IMG/VR virus record: IMGVR_UViG_3300041809_001476
Coordinates: 1-50,964 of that record
Source: a virus
Length of the DNA stretch: 50,964 bases
Direction: 5' to 3' (one strand)
Both the position numbers and the translations under genes were made by a program. This document shows positions 16,866 to 46,068 of this stretch, one piece after another. The notes beneath the pieces are model-generated. The model was not told the DNA's origin, did not search any database, and saw only the letters and a list, made by a program, of their open reading frames with translations. Numbering within the stretch: the first letter of the stretch is position 1; every line of letters begins with the position of its first letter.

Positions 16866-16937
16866 ATGAGTTGGTCTCCAGAAATTCGTAAAGATAGAGC
16901 CGTCAAAGCAGTTCAAGCTCGATGGGGGAATGCATAA
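16866..16937 (+). CDS. 23-aa mini-ORF coupled to baseplate gene
   Basis: ATG 16866 to TAA 16935-16937 encodes MSWSPEIRKDRAVKAVQARW plus three residues. The stop overlaps the ATG of the gpJ-like gene (TAATG), and it starts one base after the previous stop TAG. The peptide is basic and helical and resembles a motif (SPEIR.....AV.ARW) seen in small phage and bacterial proteins. It may be a real microprotein or a translational coupler. Confidence 0.4.
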   Translation: MSWSPEIRKDRAVKAVQARWGNA

Positions 16938-19900
16938 TGTCCCCTGTTCTCACCACCCTCAAACCGCTCATTGTCACCTCCCCGGCGATTATTGGGCAAT
17001 CCCTGTCCATCGACACCCAAGTTTTACCTCTTAGCATCCAAGCCGACACTTACGCTATCCCTTGGGTCGAGAACACGGAATTCTTCCCCGGTGACCAGAT
17101 AGTAGATTCGAATGGGAATGTGCAGACGGCTACTGTTGATGGCGTCACTGGCTTAACGTCTCCCACTTGGTCAAGTGGGCAAGGAAATTTCACAACGGAT
17201 GGTGCTCAAGTTTGGGTTCTCATTGGTGTTCCGGATACCACCCGCATCGAAGTCCTTATCTATGATGAAACTTTCACGTTCCTGAATTACACCCTGGGTT
17301 CCCAGACGACTCCTTTCCTGGAATCTTGGACCACTTTCACAGGTGATATCAATGTGGATCCAACGATTCCTCAGACGCTTTTGCAGATTCGGGGTAGAAA
17401 TTACGATCCTTCCCCCGGCGCGGTGTGGCAAGCCAACATCAACTATACAGTTGGCGCACAGATCATAGACAGCAACGGTAACGTGGAGACGGTTATCATA
17501 GCTGGAATTTCAGGGGCCGCTGTTCCTGTTTGGCCTCTTGGGATCGGAGTCCAGACGACGGATGGAGGAGCAACCGGCGCGGTTTGGATTATGACCGGTC
17601 TGCCGGCTCTAACCACTACCGTCCAAACCAATCTGATTTATTTCCAGTCAAGCGATGCAGTCCAGATTGGACCCCCTTCCGGTGTCACTGCCTACAAAGG
17701 GGCCACGTCTTGCCAACTTGAGTGGGCACAACCAATGTTCCCTGGCACGCTAGGTGTTCAGGTGATGCTTTCCACTGATCCTACTGGCGTCAATGTCCCT
17801 TTTACACAGTTCGGGGATCTTGTTTACAATGTAACGCGAACAGCCAACGTAATTATTTCGGAATCGAATCAATCTAGTACAGTTCCAAATGTCGAGACTC
17901 AGGATATCACCAATGTAGTGATAAATTCTCCAACATTAGCTACTTTGACCGTGGAAACTGGAACCGCTTTCCAGACCAACCAGCCAATCACTATTGCGAG
18001 TTTGACCGCAGCGCAAAACCTCCAGTTGAACGGCACTTGGACAGTTTACGGGGCGACTCTCAGTACAGTTATAATCCAGGGTTCAGGTTGGACCGCGCAC
18101 GGAGCGGTTGCTGATACTGGTACCGCGACTCAAACTCTTACCACCAGCACTACAACTTTGACGACAACCCAGGAAACTCAAGAAGTTTCTTTCAGCTCGG
18201 TTGTGATAACTCCCGGTGACGTTCAGAATGCCACGATATTCTACGCGATGTTGTCAGTGGTTGTCCAAGATCCTAACACAAACGTTGTGTTCCAGTCACA
18301 ACAAAATGGTCCCATAACTTGTGGCTTTGTGAATCTGCAAGTCGTTAGTCCGACGGATTTCTTAGCCTTGCAACGCAAGGAAGATATCGCGGGTCGCCTT
18401 ATTACATACATCACCAACCTTTATCCCGATTTGGACTTGTCCCCGCGTTCGGAATTGCGAGATTTGATCATAGATCCAATCGCTTTAGAGCTAGCCAATA
18501 TGTCGGTTCGTGAATGGTTTAGTCGGTGCGCCACTAGCATCTCGGCTATGAGCCAACTAGATGACACGACTGGCGATGGTTTTAGTGACCCATTCAGCCA
18601 ATCACCGACCAAACAACAATTGGCCCGCGCTTATGGTTTAAGCGCCTCGGACACACAATCCCTCGTCGATACCCAGTTTGATATCCTGGGTGAACAAGCG
18701 GGTGTCACGCGGGGTACAGCGACGCCGGCAGTCGTAGAGTTGACGTTGTTCACGTACATAGAGCCAACATTGGCTGTTACTTTCCCACTGGGTGTTCAAG
18801 TAAGCACTGTGATGGATGCTAATACACCCGCGTTGACATTCGTCACAACGACTTCTGCTACTGTCACTCCGCAATCGGCGAACTCTTATTACGATCCAGA
18901 ATATGGCTGGTGGGCTATCTCTGTTCCAGCCCAGTGCACAACTACGGGCAGCGTGGGCAACGTGGGTGCGGGCACGATTCGTGTTATCACGTCGGGAGCA
19001 CCGAATGGTTGGAGTGTCACTAACTTGGAAGGTGCAGATTATGGTTTTGACGTCCAGATCAACTCAGCATTTGCGGCACAGATACAAGACCGTCAGGTTA
19101 CAGGTGTGGATTCCGGCACACGCAATGGATATTTAACCACGGCGCGTAAGACACCGGGTGTTATAAGGGCTTTGGTTGTTGCTGCCGGCGACTTAGAGAT
19201 GGTTCGTGATTGGGACTCGGTTCGCCAGAAGCATGACTATGGCTGCGTGGACATTTATGTGCAGGGCACTAGCTTTTCTGAACAGGATGAGGACATCGCT
19301 TTCTCCTACGAAAATTCGAGTATTTACGGGAATTTTTCCACCTATCTAGGTGTGTCAATCCTCAACAGCGCGTTGTTGACGTTTGCTATCTCGAACTTCT
19401 CCTTGCTGCCTTATGGTGTGGAAGCGATACAAGAATTCCTGGCTCAAAACAATTCCGGCCAAACGTTCTATTTCGGCACAAAGAACGCTCAGTTCAACAA
19501 CGCGCTGGGGATTTTCAGCCTAGACCCCAACGAGATGGCATACCAATATTCTGGCGATGAAATTTCGCAGGCAGTGGTGCCAGTAATTTTAAACAACGTT
19601 CCAGCCAACAACAAAGCGGTGTTGCACGCTTTGACCAGTGGGGTGGCCACTTACACTTTCTATCTCAACGTGCGCATGCAGTCTCCATTGGAAGTTGTCC
19701 CGTCCTTCCAACCTGTTCTGGAAGCGATCTCCGCTATTGGTGACGGGCAAACCGGCGCGGTGTCTAGTGATCTATTAGAGCTGATTCACACTTCGGATTT
19801 CTTGTTGCAAGGGGGATCTAACGACGCTGGGGATGAGGTTCTGGTTTACTCTACAAACAGTTCCCCTGTCTCTACTTCAGTCACCTTGGCCAATAATCCT

Positions 19901-21625
19901 GAGTTCATAGACACTGCTATGGATATCCCGGTGAATAGCAATGGGCAACCAGGTAATGTTCTTTCAGTTCTCAGTGCCGATCTTTCCATCGCCTACGTTT
20001 ATGGCACGGATTACACTATCGTTCCAGCCGTGGCTCCAAATCCTGCATGGGGCGGGCGTTACCGCTCATATGCGCTGAAGGCTCTAACGGAAACCTTCGA
20101 TCTTACTAATGTGCAAACCGATCCTACAGGCACCATCCTTACGATCAAGGCTGCTAACAATCTAGATCCGGGTGCAGATGTCACTTTCAACAACGTGGCT
20201 GTGGCGACTTGGTTGAACGTTCTACCGGCAGTTACCGTAGCGACGGCGACTCCCACCCAGTTCACGGCCACGATTACTGGTGGCCCATTAAGCTATGATG
20301 TTCCGGATACAGGGAATGTCGTGGCTCAAAATATTGCGCCGGGTGACACCGTTGTGGTTTCATACAACAAGTTCTCCTTGTATGAACAATTGACTTACGT
20401 AGCAGGTGAACCCCAGACTCTAACGGGTACATCCCCCACCACACTCAACCACGAGGGCTTTATCCAGAACACCTGGTTGCCTGAGAGTTATGCCAACACA
20501 ACGTTGAGTTATGATGGCGCGGTGTACAATGCTGACGGCAGTATGAATCTGCCAGCGGCTATCGCAGCTGGTTCGGTGTACGCGGGTGCTCCTCCACTTC
20601 TGTTAGGATTTACGACGTTGGTTGCTGCACAAGTTTCCCATGGCAACCGTTATATCAAAGTGACTTTCTTCGATGGAACAGCCAACCTTGTTATGCTAGA
20701 AGGAGTCGACTATACATTAACTGTAGATCCAGTCTCGGGTGCCGCTACGCTGGCGAGAATCCTAACCGGCCACATTCCAGACGGTGGTACGGTTCTCGTT
20801 AGTTACTTCTACAACGAAGTCTTTACGATGGCAACGGAGTACCCGGCCTTCGTAGAACAATTGGCTACAACAATTGCGGCTACGCAGCACGCGGCAGCCG
20901 ATGTGCTTATCAAAGCCATGGTGGAGAATGGCGTTGATGTTTCCGCGACTATCACGTTGGCTTCAAACGCTACCGCCAGTGTTGTGGATCCTCAAGTTCG
21001 AACCATCATTGGCATCGTTATGGCTAATTCGGTGGGAACGCTACAACAGTCTACAATGATACAACAGATTCTGAATCTCACGGGGGTTTCCAACGTAGCA
21101 ATACCGTTTACGAAGTTTGCTAAGACCGACGGGGCTTACGACATCGATATCATCATCCCCACGGGTACGGATTGGTTGCAATTGAAGCAGGATCCAGCGT
21201 TCGCCGGCATCTCGCTTCCAACCAATTCGTTCATAACGGAGTTCCCGGTGCTGCCCGATGCCACTATTCCTTCAGGTGGCCAACCGAATGCCTTCGTGGG
21301 AATGTTGTATGAAGGGCAGCCGTATCAGCGTTGCCTTTCTGTTCAGGCCTTTCTGGCGTCTACAGTACCTTCGTTTTACATCATTGGCACTAACGATCAA
21401 ATCAACAGTTCTACGCCGCTGCCCAACTCGTATGCACAACGCGTGATGTTGATAGAAGCGCCAGCGATAACACAGCCGACGACTCGAGCCTACCGAGTGA
21501 CGTATCAGGTGTATGGCGAGGGTGGCTATAAAGATATCACGATCAGCAGCACGGAATACTTGGTGCCGGCAAAGGTCGTCTTGAACTATCTATCAGCTCC
21601 GGCCACCACCACTTTGGGAGGCTAA
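16937..21625 (+). CDS. Baseplate J-like protein with N-terminal binding modules
   Basis: 1562-aa protein. The start is ATG 16937 (GGGGGA upstream, TAATG overlap) rather than 16922. Two copies of a W...IIDSNGN...W module lie at ~35-95 and ~155-215. Residues ~584-705 carry the baseplate J core (GEQAGVTRGTATPAVVEL ... GSVGNVGAGTIRVI), followed by a typical RQVTGVDSGTRNGYLTTAR segment. The C-terminal ~250 residues include another gpJ-like stretch (VVDPQVRTIIGIVMANSVG). Baseplate J proteins form the wedge that surrounds the tail hub in contractile phages. At over 1500 aa it is several times larger than P2 gpJ because of added adhesion modules. Confidence 0.85.
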   Translation: MSPVLTTLKPLIVTSPAIIGQSLSIDTQVLPLSIQADTYAIPWVENTEFFPGDQIVDSNGNVQTATVDGVTGLTSPTWSSGQGNFTTDGAQVWVLIGVPDTTRIEVLIYDETFTFLNYTLGSQTTPFLESWTTFTGDINVDPTIPQTLLQIRGRNYDPSPGAVWQANINYTVGAQIIDSNGNVETVIIAGISGAAVPVWPLGIGVQTTDGGATGAVWIMTGLPALTTTVQTNLIYFQSSDAVQIGPPSGVTAYKGATSCQLEWAQPMFPGTLGVQVMLSTDPTGVNVPFTQFGDLVYNVTRTANVIISESNQSSTVPNVETQDITNVVINSPTLATLTVETGTAFQTNQPITIASLTAAQNLQLNGTWTVYGATLSTVIIQGSGWTAHGAVADTGTATQTLTTSTTTLTTTQETQEVSFSSVVITPGDVQNATIFYAMLSVVVQDPNTNVVFQSQQNGPITCGFVNLQVVSPTDFLALQRKEDIAGRLITYITNLYPDLDLSPRSELRDLIIDPIALELANMSVREWFSRCATSISAMSQLDDTTGDGFSDPFSQSPTKQQLARAYGLSASDTQSLVDTQFDILGEQAGVTRGTATPAVVELTLFTYIEPTLAVTFPLGVQVSTVMDANTPALTFVTTTSATVTPQSANSYYDPEYGWWAISVPAQCTTTGSVGNVGAGTIRVITSGAPNGWSVTNLEGADYGFDVQINSAFAAQIQDRQVTGVDSGTRNGYLTTARKTPGVIRALVVAAGDLEMVRDWDSVRQKHDYGCVDIYVQGTSFSEQDEDIAFSYENSSIYGNFSTYLGVSILNSALLTFAISNFSLLPYGVEAIQEFLAQNNSGQTFYFGTKNAQFNNALGIFSLDPNEMAYQYSGDEISQAVVPVILNNVPANNKAVLHALTSGVATYTFYLNVRMQSPLEVVPSFQPVLEAISAIGDGQTGAVSSDLLELIHTSDFLLQGGSNDAGDEVLVYSTNSSPVSTSVTLANNPEFIDTAMDIPVNSNGQPGNVLSVLSADLSIAYVYGTDYTIVPAVAPNPAWGGRYRSYALKALTETFDLTNVQTDPTGTILTIKAANNLDPGADVTFNNVAVATWLNVLPAVTVATATPTQFTATITGGPLSYDVPDTGNVVAQNIAPGDTVVVSYNKFSLYEQLTYVAGEPQTLTGTSPTTLNHEGFIQNTWLPESYANTTLSYDGAVYNADGSMNLPAAIAAGSVYAGAPPLLLGFTTLVAAQVSHGNRYIKVTFFDGTANLVMLEGVDYTLTVDPVSGAATLARILTGHIPDGGTVLVSYFYNEVFTMATEYPAFVEQLATTIAATQHAAADVLIKAMVENGVDVSATITLASNATASVVDPQVRTIIGIVMANSVGTLQQSTMIQQILNLTGVSNVAIPFTKFAKTDGAYDIDIIIPTGTDWLQLKQDPAFAGISLPTNSFITEFPVLPDATIPSGGQPNAFVGMLYEGQPYQRCLSVQAFLASTVPSFYIIGTNDQINSSTPLPNSYAQRVMLIEAPAITQPTTRAYRVTYQVYGEGGYKDITISSTEYLVPAKVVLNYLSAPATTTLGG

Positions 21626-27363: not shown

Positions 27364-27575
27364 CATCCGTCGATATCAATATCTCTTGCTTCAAGTTTTA
27401 CTTTGTACTCATCCGCAGCTTTCTTTAGCTCCGACACTGTCAACCCAAAGTTGATCACCGTCTTCGCTCTGGTGACGCACTCCTTGCAGACATAGATTTC
27501 GTTCCGGCTAATTTCAGGAAGATGATCTCCTTTATTCGGTTCATTGGGCGCGTAGTTACACAATAGGCATGGCAT
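27360..27575 (-). CDS. 71-aa zinc-binding small protein
   Basis: ATG 27575 lies inside the end of the upstream 27556-28584 gene (20-nt overlap), with AGAGGA as ribosome binding site. Two Cys pairs, CLLC (residues 3-6) and CKEC (~28-31), indicate a zinc ribbon; a charged helix follows. The shared transcript suggests an accessory role to the base-hypermodification protein, but this is inference only. Confidence 0.65.
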   Translation of the reverse strand: MPCLLCNYAPNEPNKGDHLPEISRNEIYVCKECVTRAKTVINFGLTVSELKKAADEYKVKLEARDIDIDGC

Positions 27576-28584
27576 CCCAATCCTCTTTTCTGATGTTCTC
27601 GCAGTACAAGTTGACGCCCCACTTCGGCGGGTAGAAGTATTGTATCGGCTTAGGATTAGCTTCAAAAGTGTTCTTGATCCGCTTCCCTTCTTCTACAAAT
27701 TCGACCATCCCATCTTTAGTCGTGGCGCGGGTGTATTTGTCAAGTTCGCAGAAGAGATTCTGGATGTCAATGAGCTGTAATGGACGGTCACCTATGCGTT
27801 GGAAGTTGTATCCGAACTTCTTGAAGGCATCGTCTTGGTGTTCCGCCATGTAACGGATAACTTCTGCCGGGGGATTCTTCTTAAAATCGATGCCCTTGAA
27901 GCACTTCTCGATGCCGCGTAACGACCCCGGCCCCGCCACGGTGAAATCCATCTCGGTGAAATTGGTCAGCGAGCTGTAATTAATGTCGGTGATGTATTGA
28001 TAGGCGAGGAAGTCTCCCATCAAGCGGTAGGAACGGATGAGTTTGAAGGCCGTTTCCATATTGGGACAAAGCGAGATCTTCAAAGGCAGCTTGTCCTTCA
28101 TTATCTGTTCTAACAGCTGGAGGTACATCCGATGACGCGGTTGACCTTTGCTCCCAGAACCGGTCATCATATAAGCGTTGCTGTTGATTCGGATTCCTTT
28201 ATTGATACATTCGGTTAGGCACTTGTCAGCTTCTTCTATTGTTCGAGAATCATATTGAATCCCGCTGCCAATTTTTCCCATCCGGTTGGTTAGGCGTTCC
28301 CAAGTTTCGGGTAGATTGAAGATCTTGAAGAGCATGATGCGGAAGAAGGTGTCCTCAACCAACCGGACATTCTCTAACCCATCATAGACCACGTTCCGAA
28401 TCAAATATTGAGAGACGCGGTCTGAAGCGCGGTAGGCATTAGTGAACTTGAATTTCTGAAGGATGGGGTCGGTCGTCCACGGGCCGGGTTGTCCGGTTAC
28501 TGGCCAACCTAGACGCTTGAAGAAAATGTTCTGTCTCTCAGACGCGAAGTACCAAAACAGCTTGAAATTAGGAGTAATTTCCAT
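27556..28584 (-). CDS. Putative DNA base-hypermodification protein (HMUDK_hel-like)
   Basis: 342-aa protein. Residues 10-60 contain the hallmark FASERQNIFFKR ... PWTTDPILQKFKFTNAYR ... DR, and residues ~273-284 contain DIQNLFCELDKY. From memory these match the helical domain family (HMUDK_hel) linked to 5-hydroxymethyluracil DNA kinase and related thymidine hypermodification proteins of phages. I see no Walker-type kinase domain, so it may be the stand-alone helical form or a glycosylase-like relative rather than the kinase. AAGG lies upstream on the minus strand. The AADT/PLP operon at 42-45 kb is the likely functional partner. Family fairly sure; exact reaction unknown. Confidence 0.75.
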   Translation of the reverse strand: MEITPNFKLFWYFASERQNIFFKRLGWPVTGQPGPWTTDPILQKFKFTNAYRASDRVSQYLIRNVVYDGLENVRLVEDTFFRIMLFKIFNLPETWERLTNRMGKIGSGIQYDSRTIEEADKCLTECINKGIRINSNAYMMTGSGSKGQPRHRMYLQLLEQIMKDKLPLKISLCPNMETAFKLIRSYRLMGDFLAYQYITDINYSSLTNFTEMDFTVAGPGSLRGIEKCFKGIDFKKNPPAEVIRYMAEHQDDAFKKFGYNFQRIGDRPLQLIDIQNLFCELDKYTRATTKDGMVEFVEEGKRIKNTFEANPKPIQYFYPPKWGVNLYCENIRKEDWDAMPIV

Positions 28585-31022: not shown

Positions 31023-32213
31023 CAAACGAACGACTTCGAATATGAAGACGCTGATGACCGAGCTTTCGCAGAGCAAGAGCGCAAGAATCGTCCTGACCCA
31101 TATGGTGTCCGAACTTCGGCTGTTACACCAGACCCTGTTGACATTCAACAATTGGCTACGAAATATCCTAAGTCAGTTGCCTTGGCCATGGAGAAGACCT
31201 CCGACGAATACGGAAACTGGACTGATGTAAAGAAGTCGATGAACCCGGTCTTAGAACTTGAGAAAGCCGTGGTTTACAACGTTCTGTCTCATCATGGCCC
31301 CGATGTAGACTATACCAGGATCGGAAGAGTTCTGCCTCGCATACGAAGGAAAGCCGGGGATGTTTTGAAGGCATTTGAAACCGGCAAGTTGTTAGGAATA
31401 ATGGAGGATATGGGATTCTTTGGTCCAAGTTCTGATCGGCTGCGCGGCCCCGCTGACCGATACTATGCCTCGACTAAGAAAGCAGCCCGAGAAGATCCAT
31501 TGTGGAATGAGTTCCGCGCCCATGCTGTTCACAAACCACCGTTGCGAGGAATGCGGCCTGCTATCTGGGAGAACATGCTTGGCACTGTGTATGCGCTATC
31601 GCCCGAGCGAGAGTGCAAATACTTTGACTACAACTATGATGAAGCCGTGAAGTTTACCGGTTATCCAGACCGAGCAGGCCATGTTCGTGTAGCAAAAGTT
31701 CCGCCGAACGGAAGCCGTCAGTGGATACAAAGCGGTACGACTGAAGCAACACCCCGTCCAGGAAAGCTAGTCTGGTGGGTGATGGATCAAGGGAAAACTG
31801 CTGGAGTGTTCACCCCCGAGGGGTACCAATCTCATCCAAAAGGTGAACGACCTCAATCGGAAGAATACAAACAGGCAGCTCGAGAGCTGATCGCAATGTT
31901 TGGTAATCAACCTCCCGACGACTGGCAGACTCCGGCAGCGGACTGGGCCGCCGCAACCGGTCTCGATGCAGACTATCTCTATGATTTTCTACTTAGAGAA
32001 CTGGAGTGGGATCGTCGGAAGAATGCTTTTGGCAAGAAGCAGATGTCTCCTGAAATCTATCGCCTCATGCGTGAGTATTCGGAGTTAGAACCTCGACCCC
32101 AAGAGACTTTCGATGAATGGGCGGAGAAACAGCGAGCTGTTGTTACCCGTTTCGTGCCGGAGCAAGGTAGATTCAATTTTAGCGCGAAGCTGCTCTCGAA
32201 GGCATCCAAGTAA
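31023..32213 (+). CDS. Large phage protein, C-terminal part without start codon
   Basis: Coding character begins at ~31023 (QTNDFEYEDADDRAFAEQER), but no ATG, GTG or TTG exists before TTG 31152, which lacks a ribosome binding site. The product is charged and helical with many Trp and Pro, and its last residues (AKLLSKASK) resemble the VKKA-type endings in the neighbouring proteins. Best explained as the 3' part of the 29076 gene cut off by the inversion. In this orientation it is probably not translated. It overlaps the antisense GIY-YIG gene by 35 nt. Confidence 0.6.
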   Translation, partial: QTNDFEYEDADDRAFAEQERKNRPDPYGVRTSAVTPDPVDIQQLATKYPKSVALAMEKTSDEYGNWTDVKKSMNPVLELEKAVVYNVLSHHGPDVDYTRIGRVLPRIRRKAGDVLKAFETGKLLGIMEDMGFFGPSSDRLRGPADRYYASTKKAAREDPLWNEFRAHAVHKPPLRGMRPAIWENMLGTVYALSPERECKYFDYNYDEAVKFTGYPDRAGHVRVAKVPPNGSRQWIQSGTTEATPRPGKLVWWVMDQGKTAGVFTPEGYQSHPKGERPQSEEYKQAARELIAMFGNQPPDDWQTPAADWAAATGLDADYLYDFLLRELEWDRRKNAFGKKQMSPEIYRLMREYSELEPRPQETFDEWAEKQRAVVTRFVPEQGRFNFSAKLLSKASK

Positions 32214-32964
32214 CTCGTCCCCGCTTCCAACCTTGCGCAACATAGGTTTCCAATTCGTTTGGAAAAATATAGACAGATTTACCATCCTTGCTGATCCACA
32301 TTCTTCCCGACGTAGAATGATTGAGTTTCTTACGCCGTAAGCCACCACGCTGCCATCCGTTGGCTACCCAGGCTTCCACTTCTTCAGAAGGTACGTGGCG
32401 CTTCTTGCGCATAATCGGGTGGGAGATCCAAATGTTTCCAAAGGCTGGATTTCGTTCTCCGGATAAGGATTCTCTCAATTTTTGTTTGTGATCTTCAGAT
32501 AAGTGATCGCCTTTCATTACGCTCTTACCCAATCTTCGATTTTCCTTACATTGCGCTATCGCTTTCCTTCGTCGTTCCGCGTGCAGTTCCGGGTGGTTTT
32601 TCCACCAAATTTGAAGTTTAGCCCCGGCCCGTTTTGCACCTAACTTCTGTCCCGACTTCCCACTTCTATTGATGTAATCAAACCCTCCTTCTCCACCTTT
32701 GCGCATGTTGTAACATTGGGGGTTCTGAGACTCCTTAGCCACTAATTCTTCTTCTTTGTCAAAGGCCTCAGTTGCGTTTTTGAAAGTGAAAAGGATCTCT
32801 TTACGAAAATTATCCGCACCGTATTTCTGAACAGCACGAAGCACCAGCGCACCAGAGCCTAGATATTTGTCTAAAGGGTCATCTGTTTTGTGAACACCTA
32901 TGTAGAATTTCTGGTTAAGAAGATTTACGGTCCGGTAAACTGTGTACGGACAAGAGTTCAGCAT
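32179..32964 (-). CDS. GIY-YIG homing endonuclease
   Basis: 261-aa protein. Residues ~7-70 form a GIY-YIG-like nuclease domain (YTVYRTVNLLNQKFYIGVHK, then AVQKYGADNFRKEIL). A middle basic region carries modular DNA-binding motifs (LSEDHKQKLRESLSGERNP). Two repeats at ~170-250 end in VEAWVANGWQRGG and LETYVAQGWKRGR, a pattern of tandem DNA-recognition units in phage endonucleases. AGAGGT upstream of ATG 32964 sets the start. It is divergent from the tmRNA gene, a typical location for mobile endonuclease genes. Confidence 0.8.
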   Translation of the reverse strand: MLNSCPYTVYRTVNLLNQKFYIGVHKTDDPLDKYLGSGALVLRAVQKYGADNFRKEILFTFKNATEAFDKEEELVAKESQNPQCYNMRKGGEGGFDYINRSGKSGQKLGAKRAGAKLQIWWKNHPELHAERRRKAIAQCKENRRLGKSVMKGDHLSEDHKQKLRESLSGERNPAFGNIWISHPIMRKKRHVPSEEVEAWVANGWQRGGLRRKKLNHSTSGRMWISKDGKSVYIFPNELETYVAQGWKRGRVTWMPSRAASR

Positions 32965-33019
32965 TCGGCACCTCTATAACGTTGCTGTAGCTGAAAAACC
33001 CCTTTCTGTAGTAATATAG

Positions 33020-33306
33020 AAGTGCAAGATGATTGTGTGAAGCGTCCAAGAAGGCTGTAACACACGGGTTCGACTCCCGTGCCGTCCACCAATAAACTAA
33101 CGGGCGGCTAAACGGCATTCGACTGCGGCATTGAAGGGACGGGGACAATCCGGAACGTCTGTGGCCCACCGTAACGGGACACGGGAATTTAACCGCGACG
33201 GCAAAACCGCTTGCGATGGCAGCGGCAGCCTAAAAACTGCTGTACCACGAGGATTCGGGGCGTACCTGGGAACAGAAGCCAGCAGACCATCGCTGGCAAC
33301 GCCTCA
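33020..33306 (+). ncRNA. ssrA: Circularly permuted (two-piece) tmRNA
   Basis: Gene order is 3' half, then 5' half. 3' part: T-arm ACGGG-TTCGACT-CCCGT (33064-33080), acceptor GCCGTCC (33081-33087), A73, CCA 33089-33091. A 10-nt spacer follows. 5' part: GGGCGGC (33102-33108) pairs fully with the acceptor strand and includes G3-U70, the alanine identity pair; TTCGAC follows at 33118-33123 in the D-arm-like region. P2 joins the pieces: GGACG (33137) with CGTCC (33043) and ACAATC (33145) with GATTGT (33031). Tag ORF 33201-33233: AKPLAMAAAA, stop TAA. H5: GCGGCAG (33222-33228) and CTGCTGT (33237-33243) around the stop, as in E. coli. A further stem is 33257-33263/33299-33305. Outer ends approximate. 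It would rescue stalled ribosomes and tag proteins for proteolysis. Confidence 0.85.
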
Positions 33307-33323
33307 CTTCTTAGGAGAACTCC

Positions 33324-35660
33324 ATGCTCAACGGCCTCAAGGTAGCGGAAGGTGAAAGCGATAAGCAACTTCGTCCGATGGATCGAACAGATTGGATGGC
33401 CTTTGCCGGGGCAGAGAATTTTGATGACGGTTCGGAGCCGATGATTGCCTACGTAGATGTAACGCAATGGCCTTCAGAACATCGGAAGGATACGCCAGGG
33501 TCCCAAGAGCCGGTGGATGGTGTGGTTGTTCTCGCTGACAAGAATGGTGTAGCCGTAAGTGGCACCAATGCCGCGTTCGTTCTTTTTGGCCCCGAGAAAG
33601 AACAGGCTATCGAGATTGGCAATAAGATCGTCCAGTCAGCTCCTGTCAACTGGAAGGATTTGGTTCGTCAAGGATTTGAACCCATCAATTTTCCGAATGA
33701 CAACGAATTGCAACGTGAAGCAGCGGAAGAGGAACCGGGCCGCATTCCTCAGAACGCTTCTGTGAAGAAAGCTGCACGCCCAGACAATTTTGACTACAAG
33801 ACGGAATTAACGACTCCCGATGGGTATGAGATTCAGTCCTACAATCCTTTTGCTGATCCAAAGAATCCGCGTCGCTTTTCAGTTTGGCCTCCCGAGGGCA
33901 ATGCGGTGGGCGATTACAGTAGCTTGGAAGAAGCTAATCTCGCCATCGAACAATGGAAACAGTTTGGTGACCCAGAGCTGTTGAAGAGAGATGGCGGAGC
34001 GCGATTCAAAGTCCGAAAGGCTTCAGCCACAAAGACCGCTGGCAACTTTAAGGGTGCTTGGACGAACGAACCGCAACCCGGCCCGGAAGAACTCCAACCC
34101 GTCAATGATACGATCGCTTTTCTGAAGTCGGATCCATCCCAGTGGTATGCCATTAGGTGGCATGGTTACGCTGGGGACGAAGGCACTTACGATATGGTTG
34201 GCCTGCCTGCCGAGCCTCAATCTGTAAATGACATCGCAGCCGTTCTCGATGAAACTCCCACACAAATTGCTCGCGCTTCGGAGGATGGATACTACTCTTA
34301 TTCTTCCAAGGACCAGTTGCTAGCTTTCTCAAATCTCTCCCTCACCAAACCAACCGAGACTTATGGTGCTCGAAACGAAGAGGAGTATTTCCACTATATT
34401 CAAGAGCTGCCCGATTTTGATGACGTGTATGCTGCCGCCATGAAAGAAGATGAAGGCGCACCCGAGGAAGGCCATGAGGCCTCTTATTTGGAATGCCCTG
34501 ATTGCGGCCAACGTATAGACACCTGGGATGCCGAGCAGGGGTCCTATAATCCGGCAAAGTTGGATGAACATCGTGTTAAAGAGCATCAAAAGAAAGGCTC
34601 TGTGAAAACCGCTGGTCCCATGGATGTAGAATCTCCCGAATCTTCTTTTGTTGATACCGATCACAAGATGCGACCATTTGAGAGAACCGATTGGTATGGT
34701 TGGGCCGGGGCGGAGAGTTTTGAAGGAGGGCAGGGTCAACCGGACATCCCGCCTTACATCGCATATGCCAAGGTTGTCAATTGGCCCGAGATTGACGAAT
34801 ACAATTTTGAAAACGAAAACCCGATCGACGAAGTCGCTGTGATTGTGGATGCTAACGGCGTTTCGATCAATGGCTCGAACGGTGCGTACCAAATTGATAT
34901 GGGCAGCAAAGAGACTAACCTCTCCGAAGCGAACCAAATGCTGTTGCACCAGCCCATCGACGTCAACCAGTTGAAGGATCAAGGCTGGGAAGAGATTAAC
35001 ATCTTCCCTATGGAAGAACAGCAGAAACGTCGACAAGAAAACATGATGCGCGATCAGCAGAAAAAGAATACCGAAATCCAACAAGCTGATCCTACAAAGC
35101 AGCGAGAATTGGAATCCGGTCGGAAACCGATGGAGGCTTCTGCGAAGAAGAAGAAAGCCGATGAGGAAAAGGAAAATTGGAGAGATGAAGATTTTCCGTC
35201 TAATAAACCACCCCTCAACGATATGCGCAAGGCCGTACAGATTTTGACACGTGTGGCTAAGACTCCTGAACAAAGAGAGGCTTTAGACTATTTGAAACGA
35301 GCTGTACTGGCGCTGAACGACCGCATTTACAAGGAGATGGGCGTTCCTCCTGTGGATCCTCTTATGGCATCCGTGAAAACTGCTGACTCCATGTCCGAAG
35401 GTGTTGATCCGAATTTGGTCAACGACATCAACGAACAGACCCGCCAAGACGAGGAGAGGATGTATCGTGAGCTCGAACAAGAAGGTCAAGAGGATCGTGA
35501 ACTGCACGAACAACGTGAGGGTTGGCCTGATTCGGATGAGGAGACAACTGAGTCTACCATTTCCCACATTGTAAATGTTTTACAAGACAGCTCCATGTCT
35601 CAGGAAGCCCGTATTGCTCGTGCTCATTCGGAATTAAAGGATTGGCTGCTCACTCACTAA
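33324..35660 (+). CDS. Large phage protein with internal duplication
   Basis: 778-aa acidic protein; AGGAG precedes ATG 33324. Residues ~16-125 (RTDWMAFAGAENFDDG ... GVAVSGTNAAFVLFG) are repeated at ~450-570 (RTDWYGWAGAESFEGG ... GVSINGSNGAYQIDMG). Between them are a Cys pair (CPDCGQ ~391) and several VKxA linkers (ASVKKAAR, ATKTAGN, GSVKTAG, ASVKTAD). The C-terminus is coiled-coil rich and very acidic. No signal peptide. The linkers could be cleavage sites or flexible joints in a virion protein. Family not recognised. Confidence 0.7.
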   Translation: MLNGLKVAEGESDKQLRPMDRTDWMAFAGAENFDDGSEPMIAYVDVTQWPSEHRKDTPGSQEPVDGVVVLADKNGVAVSGTNAAFVLFGPEKEQAIEIGNKIVQSAPVNWKDLVRQGFEPINFPNDNELQREAAEEEPGRIPQNASVKKAARPDNFDYKTELTTPDGYEIQSYNPFADPKNPRRFSVWPPEGNAVGDYSSLEEANLAIEQWKQFGDPELLKRDGGARFKVRKASATKTAGNFKGAWTNEPQPGPEELQPVNDTIAFLKSDPSQWYAIRWHGYAGDEGTYDMVGLPAEPQSVNDIAAVLDETPTQIARASEDGYYSYSSKDQLLAFSNLSLTKPTETYGARNEEEYFHYIQELPDFDDVYAAAMKEDEGAPEEGHEASYLECPDCGQRIDTWDAEQGSYNPAKLDEHRVKEHQKKGSVKTAGPMDVESPESSFVDTDHKMRPFERTDWYGWAGAESFEGGQGQPDIPPYIAYAKVVNWPEIDEYNFENENPIDEVAVIVDANGVSINGSNGAYQIDMGSKETNLSEANQMLLHQPIDVNQLKDQGWEEINIFPMEEQQKRRQENMMRDQQKKNTEIQQADPTKQRELESGRKPMEASAKKKKADEEKENWRDEDFPSNKPPLNDMRKAVQILTRVAKTPEQREALDYLKRAVLALNDRIYKEMGVPPVDPLMASVKTADSMSEGVDPNLVNDINEQTRQDEERMYRELEQEGQEDRELHEQREGWPDSDEETTESTISHIVNVLQDSSMSQEARIARAHSELKDWLLTH

Positions 35661-38299: not shown

Positions 38300-38422
38300 A
38301 TGGATGAAAATTACAGCGAGTGGACAAGTTGCGAATTCTACGGTCATAACTTTGTGACCGATGAGGAAACCGGTCGGACGGCTTGCACCGACTGTGAAGA
38401 AACTGTGGAAGACGAAGCCTAG
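38300..38422 (+). CDS. 40-aa zinc-knuckle-like small protein
   Basis: AAGGAG (38287-38292) precedes ATG 38300. The product is very acidic with CEFYGHNF and CTDCEE (four Cys/His ligand candidates). Its 3' end, including the stop TAG, overlaps the first 10 nt of tRNA-Ile, so mature tRNA processing would cut this mRNA. Function unknown. Confidence 0.6.
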   Translation: MDENYSEWTSCEFYGHNFVTDEETGRTACTDCEETVEDEA

Positions 38423-38490
38423 CTCATGGCGGGTAGAGCACCCGGCTGATAACCGGGAGGTGCCGAGTTCGACCCTCGGGGCTTCGACCA
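38413..38490 (+). tRNA. tRNA-Ile(GAT)
   Basis: 78 nt including encoded CCA. Acceptor CGAAGCC/GGCTTCG, D-stem GCTC/GAGC, anticodon arm CCCGG-CTGATAA-CCGGG, T-arm CCGAG-TTCGACC-CTCGG, discriminator A. All stems pair fully. The 5' end overlaps the stop of the upstream small gene. Confidence 0.95.
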
Positions 38491-38495
38491 ATTTT

Positions 38496-38690
38496 ATGAC
38501 GGATGCATTGCCAGAGCGACCATGTTATGCTTGTGGGGCCAAGCCGGGTGGAAACCTGCGACTCCACAATTCTGGTTGCACATATGTAGCGCGGTTGTGC
38601 GAAGTTTGGCCAGGTGTGAGATTGTTTGTAATGGGTGACAATGGATCTTGGCACAAAGAAAGCCGTAGGAATCCAAAGCACCCTAAATGA
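38496..38690 (+). CDS. 64-aa Cys-rich protein between tRNAs
   Basis: ATG 38496 lies 5 nt after the CCA of tRNA-Ile with no ribosome binding site, so translation may be leaderless after tRNA processing. CYACGAKPGGNLRLH and SGCTYVARLC give four Cys and a His, a plausible zinc site; the C-terminus is basic. The stop is one base before the next tRNA. Function unknown. Confidence 0.5.
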   Translation: MTDALPERPCYACGAKPGGNLRLHNSGCTYVARLCEVWPGVRLFVMGDNGSWHKESRRNPKHPK

Positions 38691-38691
38691 T

Positions 38692-38766
38692 GCTGGTGTA
38701 GCACAAGGGCGGTGCGCCTGATCCGTAATCAGGAGGTTGCTGGTTCAATTCCAGTCACCAGCTCCA
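38692..38766 (+). tRNA. tRNA-Thr(CGT) with C33
   Basis: 75 nt with encoded CCA. Acceptor GCTGGTG/CACCAGC, D-stem GCAC/GTGC, anticodon arm CCTGA-TCCGTAA-TCAGG, T-arm GCTGG-TTCAATT-CCAGT, discriminator T. The loop has C instead of the nearly universal U at position 33. G1-C72 and C2-G71, threonine identity pairs, are present. Confidence 0.9.
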
Positions 38767-38781
38767 ATTTTAGGAGGTAAC

Positions 38782-39054
38782 ATGGAAGACCGAAGTGGTT
38801 TTTTGCCGAGCAAGCAGTATCGCTGCCAGGATGAAGATTGTGGCCGCGTGAGTTTTGGCCGTGATTTGCTCCCTGTGCAAGCGAGACAATTGGTCGAGGA
38901 TCCAACGCAGAAGTATGGTCTGCGTGAAGTTGGGGACGTCTTTATTAGTAACCGGGTATGTCCGTACGATCGAGGACTAATGGACCGGCGTCCCTGCGGG
39001 CTTTTCGCGTTCCCGATGCTTTGTGGACATGACGCTCTTTACGGCGTCGAATAA
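38782..39054 (+). CDS. 90-aa zinc-binding-like protein
   Basis: ATG 38782 is preceded by AGGAGG with good spacing. Cys-rich: YRCQDEDCGRVSFG near the N-terminus and VCPYDRGLMDRRPCG and LCGH further on. Likely one or two zinc ribbons. It lies between two Thr tRNAs and ends 5 nt before the next. Unknown function. Confidence 0.6.
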   Translation: MEDRSGFLPSKQYRCQDEDCGRVSFGRDLLPVQARQLVEDPTQKYGLREVGDVFISNRVCPYDRGLMDRRPCGLFAFPMLCGHDALYGVE

Positions 39055-39059
39055 GTTTT

Positions 39060-39134
39060 GCTGGCGTAGCACAGTGGTAGTGCACCGCTTTGGTAAAGCG
39101 GAGGTCGTTGGTTCAATCCCAATCGCCAGCTCCA
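39060..39134 (+). tRNA. tRNA-Thr(GGT)
   Basis: 75 nt with encoded CCA. Acceptor GCTGGCG/CGCCAGC, D-stem GCAC/GTGC, anticodon arm CCGCT-TTGGTAA-AGCGG with normal U33, T-arm GTTGG-TTCAATC-CCAAT, discriminator T. Very similar to the CGT copy, which suggests duplication. Confidence 0.95.
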
Positions 39135-39137
39135 ATT

Positions 39138-39608
39138 ATGAATCACTGGGCGGCTCCAGTATTAAGCCTTGTGGATAAAAAGTCAAGTCAACTCGGAATG
39201 CACTATAGCACGGCAGCAGCTAGACTCGATAGAATGGTTTTGTTCATGTTAATTCAGCGTTGCAGCTTGGACTCGTGTTTCCAGTGTGGTAAAAAGATAG
39301 AACGTTGGCAAGATCTTAGCACAGAGCACAAGCAGCCTTGGCAGGATACCGACCCGGCGCTGTTTTGGGATTTAAGTAACATAGCGTTCAGTCACAAGAG
39401 TTGCAACTTTGCCGCCGCGCGACGGCAAGATCCTAAAATTGTGATTCCATTTTTGGATTCTATTCGTCCAGAAACGTTGAACGAAAAGGCACCTGAGGGC
39501 ATGGCTTGGTGCAGTGGCCACCAAACTTACCTTTCACGGGACTTGTTTGATAAGAACACGACGAAGAAGAATGGTCTTCAAAGCGGTTGTAAAGAATGCA
39601 GAGCTTGA
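39138..39608 (+). CDS. HNH endonuclease within the tRNA cluster
   Basis: 156-aa protein. CFQCGKKIE, then LSTEHKQPWQ, then FSHKSCNFAAARR form a C..C...EH...H..CN HNH-type metal and catalytic core (residues ~42-95). A second Cys set (CSGHQTYL ... CKECRA) closes the protein. ATG 39138 is only 3 nt after the CCA of the Thr-GGT tRNA and has no ribosome binding site. Likely a homing enzyme targeting the tRNA region. Confidence 0.75.
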   Translation: MNHWAAPVLSLVDKKSSQLGMHYSTAAARLDRMVLFMLIQRCSLDSCFQCGKKIERWQDLSTEHKQPWQDTDPALFWDLSNIAFSHKSCNFAAARRQDPKIVIPFLDSIRPETLNEKAPEGMAWCSGHQTYLSRDLFDKNTTKKNGLQSGCKECRA

Positions 39609-39613
39609 TATTT

Positions 39614-39688
39614 GCAGGTGTGGCTCAATGGCACAGCAGCGGATCTGTAATCCGCCATTTGGGGGTTCAAGTCCCTTCGCCTGCTCCA
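39614..39688 (+). tRNA. tRNA-Thr(TGT) with C33
   Basis: 75 nt with encoded CCA. Acceptor GCAGGTG/CGCCTGC (one G-U), anticodon arm GCGGA-TCTGTAA-TCCGC, T-arm GGGGG-TTCAAGT-CCCTT, discriminator T. C33 again replaces U33. D-stem GCTC/CAGC has one mismatch. G1-C72 and C2-G71 present. Confidence 0.88.
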
Positions 39689-39693
39689 ATTTT

Positions 39694-39769
39694 AGGGCGG
39701 TAGCTCAATCGGCAGAGCCACCGGCTTTGACCCGGTAGGTTGTAGGTTCGATCCCTACCCGCCCTGCCA
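39694..39769 (+). tRNA. tRNA-Gln(TTG)
   Basis: 76 nt with encoded CCA. Acceptor AGGGCGG/CCGCCCT, D-stem GCTC/GAGC, anticodon arm ACCGG-CTTTGAC-CCGGT, T-arm GTAGG-TTCGATC-CCTAC, discriminator G. The 3' part of the minus-strand HNH gene overlaps it on the opposite strand. Confidence 0.95.
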
Positions 39770-42245: not shown

Positions 42246-42599
42246 CTAGCAACCTGGCCCGCGATCAAATGCATTTTGATTTTCTGTTTTCGGACGTTGA
42301 GCCATCTTTTTGATTTCGTCCATTCGTTCCTGAGACACTGTCACTAAGATAGGCGCGGGTGATTTCCTCACCCACAGATCTATCATCTCCTGCCGCCATT
42401 CTTCAGAACGTTCTAGGAGTAAATTTATTAGAACGGCGGTAAATCTTTCGTAGCTCCAATTTTCATGCTGCGCAAGATTCCAAACATAGCTCGCTAAAGG
42501 ATCTTTCAACATCAAGATCTCGGTTTGTTTTCGTAGTTCTTCGTTGGAAGATGTAATCGCTTGTTTGACGTCTGCTTCAAAGTTGCTGTTGTAACTCAT
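42246..42599 (-). CDS. 117-aa helical hypothetical protein
   Basis: Starts inside the end of the AADT gene (23-nt overlap) and so is in the same operon. Mostly helical (ADVKQAITSSNEELRKQTEI; FTAVLINLLLERSEEWRQE), with no Cys cluster. Co-expression with the AADT suggests a related role, but no family is recognised. Confidence 0.65.
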   Translation of the reverse strand: MSYNSNFEADVKQAITSSNEELRKQTEILMLKDPLASYVWNLAQHENWSYERFTAVLINLLLERSEEWRQEMIDLWVRKSPAPILVTVSQERMDEIKKMAQRPKTENQNAFDRGPGC

Positions 42600-43821
42600 G
42601 ATTTTCTTCCTCTACTTTCTTGTTGAAATCGTTCTCAAAACACGACCAATCCTGATTCATCATAACTGGAACGCCGGTTAAGCGGTAATGGTTTTGTTTC
42701 TCCGGTCTAAGACCAGGGTCACCGGGGTTGTCTTCCAAACGAAGCCATTTTGGAAGATAAGATTGGCGCATCTTCCAAAAGATCGAAAAGTCTTCTTCAG
42801 GCCAACGCTGTTCTGCCTTCTTGATTCGATTATAAAACATGTCAGCGTAAACGCCAGGGTAACGGCGGTTCTTACGATGCCAGCTCTTGTAAGTGCAGAG
42901 TTCAGATTCCAGCGTGAAGTAAGTTACGTCCCAGGCAAAGTCCCGACCTTTGAATCGTTGCTTGGCTTCTTCCAGCAACACAGACCCTTCCTTCTTTAGC
43001 CATCCCATTACTTCCGGAGTGTACTTGCCTTCGAAGCCGGTGCCATTTTCCGGCCCAGTCCAGTCAAGATCGTCCCGGCCTAAAACTTTGGCCAGACCAT
43101 TGCGTAATGATTTGCTTCCTGTGATGTCTTCCAAAAACAAGGAGTTGGGTTCAATATTGAGCTTGGCGATCCGCAAATACTCCAGATAACTGAACGTAGA
43201 CATGCGCCCAAAAGAGTAGAAATCTTCCCGGACCATATCCCAAGCTGCCTGAAAATTCTCCAATGGGTTATCACTAACCATGGCATCATTGAAAAAGCTC
43301 GTTTGGTCGTTTCTACAAAGCTCTTTGTATCGGGTAACTGATTTGATGAAATCACGTTTTTGATGACGGCGATCTGTGTCAAATTCTAAGCGGGGCCATT
43401 CAGTGTTGTACCACTTGGCCAACGCGTCAGAGTTCAAACTAGCGAAGTCGGGAAACCGTTTGAAAATGAGCCAAGAGGTCAAAGGGTGCTGGGTGTTACC
43501 ATTGATGAAAATAAACCACAACAGCTCCTCCCGTGTCCAGTTAAGCTCCTTCTTCAAAAATGGGAAAGTCATGTAGGGAAGACTGGCCCCCGCGTGGACA
43601 CGGTACTTGAGGCAGAACTCATAAAAACGCAAGAAGACTTCCCGGCGATACTGCGGCTGGCGGAAGTCCATGCCCAACTCGAGATCCTGAACCTCGTTGC
43701 TGTAGCGGTCGCAAACCAAATCGCTGTAACGGCCCGGAGTCGTGTGATCTACACGGGCTACAAGCACACCGTCAAGTCCGATAGCGGACTGACCGAACGG
43801 GCTGTAAAAGAGATCGCTCAT
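42577..43821 (-). CDS. Putative amino acid:DNA transferase (AADT)
   Basis: 414-aa protein starting at ATG 43821 (MSDLFYSPFG), which overlaps the stop of the preceding mini-gene. Motifs in order: FLRFYEFCLKYRVHAGA, LWFIFINGNTQHPLTSWLIF, RRFPDFA-like segment, FDTDRRHQKRDFIKSV, FSYLEYLRIA, LEDITGSKSLRNGLAKVLGR. These correspond, from memory, to the alpha-glutamyl/putrescinyl thymine pyrophosphorylase clade later named amino acid:DNA transferase. These enzymes displace pyrophosphate from activated 5-hmU in phage DNA with an amino acid. The PLP enzyme two genes upstream in the same operon could further process the adduct. Family fairly sure; substrate amino acid unknown. Confidence 0.8.
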   Translation of the reverse strand: MSDLFYSPFGQSAIGLDGVLVARVDHTTPGRYSDLVCDRYSNEVQDLELGMDFRQPQYRREVFLRFYEFCLKYRVHAGASLPYMTFPFLKKELNWTREELLWFIFINGNTQHPLTSWLIFKRFPDFASLNSDALAKWYNTEWPRLEFDTDRRHQKRDFIKSVTRYKELCRNDQTSFFNDAMVSDNPLENFQAAWDMVREDFYSFGRMSTFSYLEYLRIAKLNIEPNSLFLEDITGSKSLRNGLAKVLGRDDLDWTGPENGTGFEGKYTPEVMGWLKKEGSVLLEEAKQRFKGRDFAWDVTYFTLESELCTYKSWHRKNRRYPGVYADMFYNRIKKAEQRWPEEDFSIFWKMRQSYLPKWLRLEDNPGDPGLRPEKQNHYRLTGVPVMMNQDWSCFENDFNKKVEEENHELQQQL

Positions 43822-43922
43822 TGAAACCATTTCAATATCTCGTCAATGCTTTTGCCATGCAAGTATTCAGGCAAATACGACCATCCTACCATCATAAGAC
43901 CCCGCAAGATTTTATCTCTCAT
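43818..43922 (-). CDS. 34-aa mini-gene coupled to AADT
   Basis: ATG 43922 to TGA 43820-43818. The stop overlaps ATG 43821 of the AADT (ATGA). It encodes a helical peptide (MRDKILRGLMMVGWSYLPEY ... GKSIDEILKWF). The leader GGGAGCAAACCGACTTTATG nearly repeats that of the 44306 gene. It may be a real microprotein or a translational coupler. Confidence 0.45.
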   Translation of the reverse strand: MRDKILRGLMMVGWSYLPEYLHGKSIDEILKWFQ

Positions 43923-43965: not shown

Positions 43966-44306
43966 GCACTCTTCGCAATAAAAATTGGTGTGTCGTCCCA
44001 GTTCTTGCTGATACGACCCTTCTTGACGAGATGATCGCGGTATTCGCCTGAAGTAGCCCAGATCTTTTCTCCCAGCATGAAATAACCTTTGGGCAGAGGT
44101 TTAGTAGGATCGAGTTGGCAGATTGCTGACCACGGGCCAAACCCTCGTGGGACCCATTCCATGTTGTGTTTGCGTAGCCGTCGATTCATCCAACGGATTA
44201 CTTCGTATGGTTCAGGGTCATAGATCATAGAAGCACCACTTTGGGGATCGCTTAAGGGGTGTCTTTTGCGAATTACAAAACCCTTCCAGTCCTTAAAATT
44301 GCTCAT
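43962..44306 (-). CDS. Hypothetical protein between PLP enzyme and AADT
   Basis: 114-aa protein coupled to the PLP gene (ATGA overlap). Basic, with many Trp/Pro (RHNMEWVPRGFGPWSAICQL, PKGYFMLGEKIWATSGEY). No signal peptide. Its place between two base-modification genes suggests an accessory to that pathway. Not a family I recognise. Confidence 0.65.
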   Translation of the reverse strand: MSNFKDWKGFVIRKRHPLSDPQSGASMIYDPEPYEVIRWMNRRLRKHNMEWVPRGFGPWSAICQLDPTKPLPKGYFMLGEKIWATSGEYRDHLVKKGRISKNWDDTPIFIAKSA

Positions 44307-45211
44307 AAATTGGGTTTGCTCCCCACAATCCAGTACAGACTTCTTTCGTTTAGATACTGGCGGAATTGGTCCAAGTGGTCTTGCATGTAACAGAAAGTTT
44401 TCCCTTCATAGCGCGGATGGAATTCAAGATCGTCATAAGAGTATGGCTTGAGTTGGTCGTAAGAAGTGTACCCGGAGTCAATCAAGTCAATTTCAATGAA
44501 ATTGTAAGGCAAGGGCAACGGATCGCCCGTCACCTGTCGAATGAGATCCAGGCGTTCATTTGTCCACCGTTGGTGTTTCGGAATGTTCGCCATGATCCGA
44601 AACAAGATTACATTCTTAAGGGATTTTGGCTTGAACCGGCCTAATCCATAGAGAATAGAGGTAAGCGAGTTGCAAGACCCGGCTGGGACCAAAAGATTCT
44701 CGACGTGGTTGGGGATGTTTCGTACTTGCTCGCTTCCGATTCGGTGGAAAGCCTCGACCCGTTCCGGTGTATTGACTTTGTGCTCTACGGTGATGTTGGT
44801 CTCGATGTGGAGCCAACCGCGTTCTTTGGCGAGTTTCAACGACTGAGAATTCAGGTTGCCCGCATAGCCCGGATTAACATAACGAATCTCAGCCCCGAGT
44901 TTCTTGGCCGCCTCGATGCTTTCAAACTTTGAAGGTTTGACCGAAGGGTTGCCGCCCGTAAACTGGACGCATTCCATACCGTAATGTTTGGCACAAGCAG
45001 CCACCATACAATGCTGAGGGGATCCTCCTACCGCGCCTGACGCAACACCGGGATAAGGCTTTTCGTTGAAAAGCCAAATCAGTTGTCGGCACTTGCTGCC
45101 GTTGATCCCACCCACACCCATCGGAGCGAAGAGATCGTCCCGCTTGAACCAAATGCCACCGTGCTGTTCAACAGGGGTGAGATCGTAAGCAGACTGCAGC
45201 CATTGTTCCAT
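44303..45211 (-). CDS. PLP-dependent enzyme of the hypermodification operon
   Basis: 302-aa fold-type II PLP enzyme like ACC deaminase/D-cysteine desulfhydrase. WFKRDDLFAPMGVGGINGSK places Lys40 as the likely PLP-binding lysine. A later NLLVPAGSCNSLTSILYGLG is the phosphate-binding/glycine-rich loop region. No signal peptide. First gene of the minus-strand operon: PLP enzyme, 114-aa protein, mini-genes, AADT, 117-aa protein. In thymidine-hypermodifying phages such as ViI, a PLP enzyme acts after amino acid transfer; a similar role is inferred here. GAGGTA precedes ATG 45211. Confidence 0.8.
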   Translation of the reverse strand: MEQWLQSAYDLTPVEQHGGIWFKRDDLFAPMGVGGINGSKCRQLIWLFNEKPYPGVASGAVGGSPQHCMVAACAKHYGMECVQFTGGNPSVKPSKFESIEAAKKLGAEIRYVNPGYAGNLNSQSLKLAKERGWLHIETNITVEHKVNTPERVEAFHRIGSEQVRNIPNHVENLLVPAGSCNSLTSILYGLGRFKPKSLKNVILFRIMANIPKHQRWTNERLDLIRQVTGDPLPLPYNFIEIDLIDSGYTSYDQLKPYSYDDLEFHPRYEGKTFCYMQDHLDQFRQYLNERSLYWIVGSKPNL

Positions 45212-45297: not shown

Positions 45298-46068
45298 ATG
45301 CTGACCCATGCGACCGCAGTTGGTTCCCGGAGTTATCAGGAAGATCGTTACTTCACCGCTATCCACCAGGACGGCCTTTTGTTTGGCGTGTTTGACGGGC
45401 ACGGTGGCGAAGGCTGCTCAACCTATTTGGCAGATCATTTCTTCGGGTCATTTTTCTTTCATTTCGATAACCCCAAGATTAACAACGCTCGTCAAGCCTT
45501 CCGCGAAACATTCGCAGCGATGGCAAAAGAAACTCACGATATGGTCGATGGCTCCACGGCGTCCGTTGTCTGGATCCCTAACACTGAGAAAGAAAAAGGC
45601 GGGTTAAAATGCACGAAGGCCATTCAAGACACAGCCATCGTAGCCATTCTAGGAGACTCTCCGGTTGTTATCGGGACACCGAGAGGATTCCATTTGAGTC
45701 CGGACCACAACGCTCGGTCTAACGACAAAGAATGTCAGGCGGCAGTAAAGCGCGGGGCGCGTTGGGACGGCGATTACCTTTGGAACCAACATTGGGGTTC
45801 CCGCGCTCACGGATTACAGATGGCTCGTGCTTTCGGTGACGTGGATCTCCCTTTCTTGCGCCGCGTTCCCCAAATCTACACCCGGCCCATCCACGATTTC
45901 GTTCTAATTGGGACAGATGGTCTCTTTGATCCTGGGCATACATTAGCAAGTAGAGTCCCCGACATAGTGACCATGGTTCGTGTGGGTCATACGGCGGAGC
46001 AGCTCGTTGAAATCGCAGTTGACCTGCCCACGGGGGACAACGTCACGGCTATCCTCTGGAGGAAGTAG
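45298..46068 (+). CDS. PP2C-family Ser/Thr protein phosphatase
   Basis: 256-aa protein with PPM motifs in order: RSYQEDRYF (Glu15, Asp16), FGVFDGHGGEG (Asp33-Gly34), TASVVWI, AILGDSPVV, LSPDHNARSNDKE, ARAFGDVDL, IGTDGLFD (Asp207) and TGDNVTAIL (Asp247). All metal-binding acids are present, so an active metal-dependent phosphatase is likely. No membrane anchor or sensor domain. It is 87 bp from the divergent PLP gene and 12 nt before the helicase gene. A protein phosphatase is unusual in phages; it may act on host signalling or defence kinases. Confidence 0.85.
   Translation: MLTHATAVGSRSYQEDRYFTAIHQDGLLFGVFDGHGGEGCSTYLADHFFGSFFFHFDNPKINNARQAFRETFAAMAKETHDMVDGSTASVVWIPNTEKEKGGLKCTKAIQDTAIVAILGDSPVVIGTPRGFHLSPDHNARSNDKECQAAVKRGARWDGDYLWNQHWGSRAHGLQMARAFGDVDLPFLRRVPQIYTRPIHDFVLIGTDGLFDPGHTLASRVPDIVTMVRVGHTAEQLVEIAVDLPTGDNVTAILWRK

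Follow-up and report, generated by a model that had tools for sequence, protein, structure and literature searches.

The virus record IMGVR_UViG_3300041809_001476 (IMG/VR), a complete linear record of 50,964 bases analysed at its full length and referred to here as the window, contains a circularly permuted tmRNA gene at 33031-33305 on the plus strand. It is very probable that the gene is a circularly permuted ssrA in intact form, carried on a fragment of a large soil phage related to Tunturi_5, and that it acts by the mechanism proposed below. tmRNA is the RNA that rescues stuck ribosomes. In the two-piece form, the CCA and the acceptor G mark the sites at which a precursor is cut; the G3-U70 pair directs its charging with alanine, and the RNA acts with SmpB on stalled ribosomes.

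A permuted order of segments, in a phage-encoded gene of the two-piece type, had been proposed in the first-pass annotation. This anatomy is confirmed by ARAGORN, which calls a tmRNA* at 32998-33324, by the Rfam model RF04321 (tmRNA_permuted), which gives a full-length match over 33031-33233, and by the sequence itself. The segments run from the P2 5′ halves through the T-arm, the acceptor 3′ strand with its CCA, the spacer, the acceptor 5′ strand, TTCGAC, and the tag to H5:

33031-33305, plus strand: permuted tmRNA gene, minimal extent, bounded by the outer P2 and the far side of the 3′ helix (32998-33324 by ARAGORN)
33031-33059, plus strand: P2 5′ halves, GATTGT (33031-33036), CGTCC (33043-33047), and GCTGTA (33054-33059), from RNAduplex and the sequence
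33064-33080, plus strand: T-arm ACGGG-TTCGACT-CCCGT, a 5-bp stem with a TTCGACT loop
33081-33091, plus strand: acceptor 3′ strand GCCGTCC (33081-33087), discriminator A, and encoded CCA (33089-33091)
33092-33101, plus strand: spacer of 10 nt, presumed to be cut out of the transcript (4-81 nt in relatives)
33102-33108, plus strand: acceptor 5′ strand GGGCGGC, with which the mRNA-like piece begins; 7/7 pairing, with G3 pairing to U70
33118-33123, plus strand: conserved TTCGAC of the tRNA-like domain
33124-33150, plus strand: P2 3′ halves, TGCGGC (33124-33129), GGACG (33137-33141), and ACAATC (33145-33150)
33195-33233, plus strand: probable tag frame ATAKPLAMAAAA, with resume codon GCG at 33195 and stop codon TAA at 33231-33233, from ARAGORN and an alignment with the tags of relatives
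33222-33243, plus strand: H5, a 7-bp helix (33222-33228/33237-33243) whose loop contains the stop codon
33257-33305, plus strand: 3′ domain, a 7-bp helix (33257-33263/33299-33305) around a hairpin (33278-33283/33292-33297) and CCTGGGAACAGAA (33265-33277)

The acceptor stem pairing in full across the two pieces, the alanine-specifying G3-U70 pair, the 10-nt spacer between the CCA and the acceptor 5′ strand, and the enclosure of the tag stop by H5 had all been described correctly. P2 also joins the pieces as described, but in three short blocks (33031-33036/33145-33150, 33043-33047/33137-33141, and 33054-33059/33124-33129) and not in two. Removal of the spacer is presumed because known two-piece tmRNAs lose theirs. 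The composite pattern GGTTCGANTCC-N8-CCACC-N5-35-GGG-N11-15-TTCGAC has one match in the window and none in 100 dinucleotide shuffles. The region of H5 and the 3′ domain (33215-33306) folds with a z-score of -2.78, with one of 200 shuffles equally stable; the stability of the whole gene is ordinary (z-score -0.95) by a method unable to represent pseudoknots or the tertiary structure of the tRNA-like part.

The window is assigned to a large tailed phage that has a relative in Tunturi_5, an acidobacterial jumbo phage. Among annotated phages, Tunturi_5 is the closest match both for the baseplate wedge protein (16922-21625; 47 % identity) and for the UvrD helicase (46081-48879; 51 % identity). Tunturiibacter phage Tunturi_5 (PP885688) has a genome of 308,711 bases and is a soil phage isolated on an acidobacterium (PMC11924767). 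Relatives of the wedge protein were found at 57 viral loci, on contigs of up to 463 kb, and none were found in bacterial genomes. As the nearest annotated relative of the phage infects an acidobacterium, the Acidobacteriota are the likely host phylum. No SmpB gene was found in 16 phage records, therefore the SmpB of the host is presumed to be used.

Several other features of the window were observed. A homing endonuclease-like gene (32179-32964, minus strand) is directly upstream of the tmRNA gene on the opposite strand, and a GIY-YIG nuclease gene is present at 48922-49587. Directly downstream of the tmRNA gene, 33324-35660 encodes a 778-aa protein that weakly matches one PHROG, itself of unknown function, and for which no relative was found in viral contigs or phages at the sensitivity used. 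A 5-hmdU DNA kinase (27556-28584, minus strand), an amino acid:DNA transferase (42577-43830, minus strand), and a PLP-dependent enzyme (44303-45211, minus strand) are likely to form a thymidine hypermodification set. The UvrD-type helicase has a probable intein at residues ~279-542, with a weak match to PF14890 (E 0.00054); the Tunturi_5 helicase matches it in two pieces, 69 % covered, and a relative in SPO1 has an annotated intein. Five tRNA genes at 38413-39769 comprise three Thr isoacceptors (CGT, GGT, and TGT), Ile, and Gln, and a phage-borne PP2C-type protein phosphatase is encoded at 45298-46068.

Within the clade, around a dozen distinct relatives have a permuted tmRNA gene downstream of the baseplate-wedge gene. 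Tunturi_5 itself, alike in wedge protein and helicase, has a permuted tmRNA at 157899-158195 on the minus strand, with an RF04321 score of 86.4 bits. It differs from that of the window in its longer tag (AKVLSFARKFVPAVSSTRAFAMAA), in being missed by ARAGORN, and in being absent from the annotation of the record; tmRNA is also unmentioned in the Tunturi_5 paper (PMC11924767). The RF04321 cut-off was exceeded by 15 of 49 related or tag-similar records, three of which had been picked up by the pattern scan and by tag likeness and not by way of the wedge gene; three others share one sequence. Besides Tunturi_5, 12 records found through the wedge gene are over the cut-off, about 10 of them distinct. 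There was no match in 31 of the 49 records, however many of the records are fragments and absence in those remaining therefore means little. In the wedge-related records, the gene follows the wedge gene at a distance of 5-17 kb and shares its strand, except for one record (G020), in which it is on the opposite strand.

The acceptor stem and P2 covary strongly between the pieces. In all 16 sequences compared, the acceptor stem pairs 7/7 and G3-U70 is present; the latter is likewise invariant in the gap-free alignment (14/14). In this alignment of the acceptor stem and P2 (n=14), 97.6 % of cells pair, changes on both sides are seen in 12 of 18 pairs, and none of 500 shuffles attains any of five measures; the P2 blocks were picked by hand with pairing in mind, so that the P2 part of these values leans towards structure. 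Independent of this choice of blocks is a permutation test on the 16 sequences, in which each P2 half was paired with its own or with swapped partners and the observed mean was reached by 3 of 20,000 permutations. For the window, its own P2 pairing outdoes all 15 swapped partners (RNAduplex). The outer P2, GATTGT/ACAATC in the window, is GGTCGT/ACGACC, GCTCGT/ACGAGC, or GCTAGT/ACTAGC in others.

A lack of any covariance-model hit had been named in the first-pass annotation as grounds for rejecting the gene. The score with RF04321, 53.6 bits, is over the cut-off of 47; among the subtype models, the beta-type RF01850 gives a full-length match of 29.2 bits, below its cut-off of 84, and the alpha-type RF01849, outscored by beta within the clan, is below its cut-off of 50. 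This test is weaker than had been assumed, because one-piece tmRNAs adjoining a tRNA also exceed the RF04321 cut-off. Six of 247 Acidobacteriota genomes do so, at 54-62 bits, and each of these matches is a one-piece tmRNA; tRNAs immediately precede it in five of the genomes, and in the sixth a second tmRNA-like match takes that place. The RF04321 score of the window alone is therefore weak evidence for the permuted form. For comparison, the 30 bacterial (alphaproteobacterial) permuted tmRNAs fetched score 126-163 bits with RF04321, and 20 bacterial alpha genes score 203-311 bits with RF01849. A beta origin based on model scores was considered and discarded; alphaproteobacterial genes reach up to 72 bits with RF01850, matching the beta model equally well, so that the match of the window to this model says little on origin.

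These six genomes give substance to a reading in which the 5′ part of a one-piece tmRNA adjoins a stray tRNA-like T-arm and so produces a false match to the permuted model, the score of the window being in the same range. No complete tRNA was found upstream of the window's gene by ARAGORN or Rfam, however, and the single usable T-arm/CCA in the window is upstream of the 5′ piece. A one-piece layout, with a downstream T-arm, acceptor strand, and CCA able to pair with 33102-33108, was sought in the window without success; the parts expected downstream of the tag in a one-piece gene (RF00023), namely the T-arm, the acceptor 3′ strand, and the CCA, are missing there. As the acceptor strands also covary between the pieces in the permuted order, this reading is highly improbable, and is refuted as far as sequence allows. 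It is also improbable, if a little less so, that the gene is a decaying, non-functional remnant of a captured tmRNA gene. The low model score would suit a remnant, as would the homing endonuclease gene directly upstream and the results for expression signals: no promoter was recognised upstream of the gene, where the best match is equalled in 274 of 300 shuffles, and no terminator was found at its end on the gene strand, although one is visible by eye in several relatives. Yet the helices, CCA, G3-U70, tag frame, stop codon, and H5 are all intact, and the P2 of the window differs from those of its relatives by compensatory changes, which are not expected of a remnant.

The window tag is probably ATAKPLAMAAAA, starting from GCG at 33195, since this start is given by ARAGORN and agrees with the tags of relatives in alignment (ATAPLAMAAAA, ATAPKALAMAAAA, and ATAPKAMAAHA); the tag AKPLAMAAAA first read from the sequence was two codons short. 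No clade tag ends in LAA (0/13, three tags read by hand); nine end in AAAA, two in AMAA, and two in AAHA. An LAA end is found in 30 of the 32 calls that ARAGORN made at tmRNA loci of acidobacterial hosts, and in 37 of 61 distinct tags from other viral permuted tmRNAs. One of the two host exceptions is the odd tag EGQASRGGDLAQQYLDQSLSAG, a tmRNA* call that was taken as spurious, the locus having been fetched through a one-piece RF00023 match. These counts favour a functional RNA with a tag that is not for ordinary degradation by host ClpXP, for example one that releases ribosomes and adds a weak or phage-chosen degron, but the clade tags still terminate in Ala. Such a role is a minority possibility, unlikely but with appreciably more weight than decay, and is a variant of the preferred explanation that is compatible with it. 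The altered tag end may change the fate of the tagged protein.

A comparison with the host had been suggested from the start, and the two differ: the clade has two-piece genes and no LAA tags, whereas the likely host phylum has one-piece genes and mostly LAA tags. One-piece tmRNAs were found in four acidobacterial genomes, with scores of 164-196 bits, one of these being of the Tunturiibacter group (Edaphobacter lichenicola M8UP30), and over the cut-off in 37 of 40 genomes sampled across the Acidobacteriota, with scores lower or higher than these. In one Acidobacteriota genome, a second one-piece tmRNA match (1696-2028 of the locus, minus strand; 110.5 bits) is beside the first (155.2 bits). 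No verified permuted gene was found among the matches over the RF04321 cut-off in 247 Acidobacteriota genomes. The clade's version of the tmRNA seems to work in bacteria with an ordinary one-piece tmRNA.

Derivation of the phage gene from the host was considered due to the near-identical tRNA-like ends of two relatives (L187 and L189) and the one-piece gene of the Tunturiibacter group (L321). A shared 3′-domain motif of the CCTNGNNACNNAA type speaks against the host's tmRNA having been permuted independently. The window and four other sequences (L187, L196, L181, and L184) have it. Among permuted tmRNAs it occurs in 25 of the 30 from alphaproteobacteria and in 70 of 115 from other viruses; among one-piece genes it occurs in none of 25 from Acidobacteriota and in 1 of 23 from proteobacteria. 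As the motif was defined with clade sequences and the beta consensus already in view, and as 10 of 13 clade sequences lack it, it is a lead and not proof.

No phage had been known to the first-pass annotation to carry the two-piece form, however one was described in 2022 in phage Melnitz, which infects Methylophilales (PMC9004378). The same study reported 53 predicted two-piece tmRNAs among 133 unique phage tmRNA structures, based on ARAGORN predictions from 18,146 genomes (PMC9004378), and a 2025 catalogue lists 79 tmRNA sequences from bacteriophages, all forms included (PMC11915505). At least 119 IMG/VR viral stretches match a permuted-tmRNA pattern, and ARAGORN makes calls on 100 of the pattern-matching stretches examined outside the clade, all tmRNA*. 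The window's gene extends the published phage two-piece tmRNA to another phage clade. As in Melnitz and other marine phages, the permuted ssrA gene is complete and belongs to a large tailed phage, its form is predicted by ARAGORN, and its function is presumed. It differs in phage lineage, in having no riboswitch recognised with the gene, in the clade tags (AAAA, AAHA, and AMAA ends versus mostly LAA), and in the one-piece tmRNA of the likely host phylum. With the sequences of RF04321, in which the alpha, beta, and cyano types are merged (PMC11915505), it shares segment order and the tRNA-like domain, but it scores far under the alphaproteobacterial genes fetched and its best subtype match is far below that model's own cut-off. 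The one-piece tmRNA of the Acidobacteriota (RF00023) has the tRNA-like hallmarks and presumed function in common with it, but differs in its ordinary order of segments, in tags like AEPQFALAA, and in lacking the CCTNGNNACNNAA-type motif. No prior report of a permuted tmRNA in this phage clade or in the likely host phylum was found in the partial coverage of the literature available.

Beyond the established gene anatomy, covarying helices, conservation, and clade position, we infer transcription, processing, charging, tagging, and a benefit to the phage. The transcript would be trimmed by host tRNA-processing enzymes at CCA 33091 and G 33102, so that the 10-nt spacer would be lost and the acceptor and mRNA-like pieces would remain joined through pairing in the acceptor stem and P2. 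The host AlaRS would charge the molecule through G3-U70, and host SmpB and EF-Tu would deliver it to stalled ribosomes, where the nascent chain would gain Ala and ATAKPLAMAAAA and be released at the TAA. Ribosomes would in this way be kept free during infection as host mRNA is degraded; such ribosome recycling is the most likely benefit to the phage. It is a more speculative and rather unlikely proposal that the clade of acidobacterial jumbo phages adds a two-piece, non-LAA-tagging tmRNA to the one-piece tmRNA of the host in order both to free ribosomes and to steer the tagged products away from, or elsewhere within, host proteolysis.

For annotation, RF04321 matches of about 47-65 bits call for a check on neighbouring tRNAs, and some permuted genes of this clade escape ARAGORN. 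The phage two-piece tmRNA, so far mostly marine or aquatic, is brought to a clade of large phages that has an isolated soil member, Tunturi_5, with a cultured host. The clade's version sets itself apart by its unusual tag end and by a likely host with an unscrambled tmRNA gene. As phage and host differ in both form (two-piece and one-piece) and tag (AAAA and LAA), the fates of proteins tagged by each could be distinguished in one infected cell, which would make the purpose of phage tmRNAs directly testable in the Tunturi_5 system.
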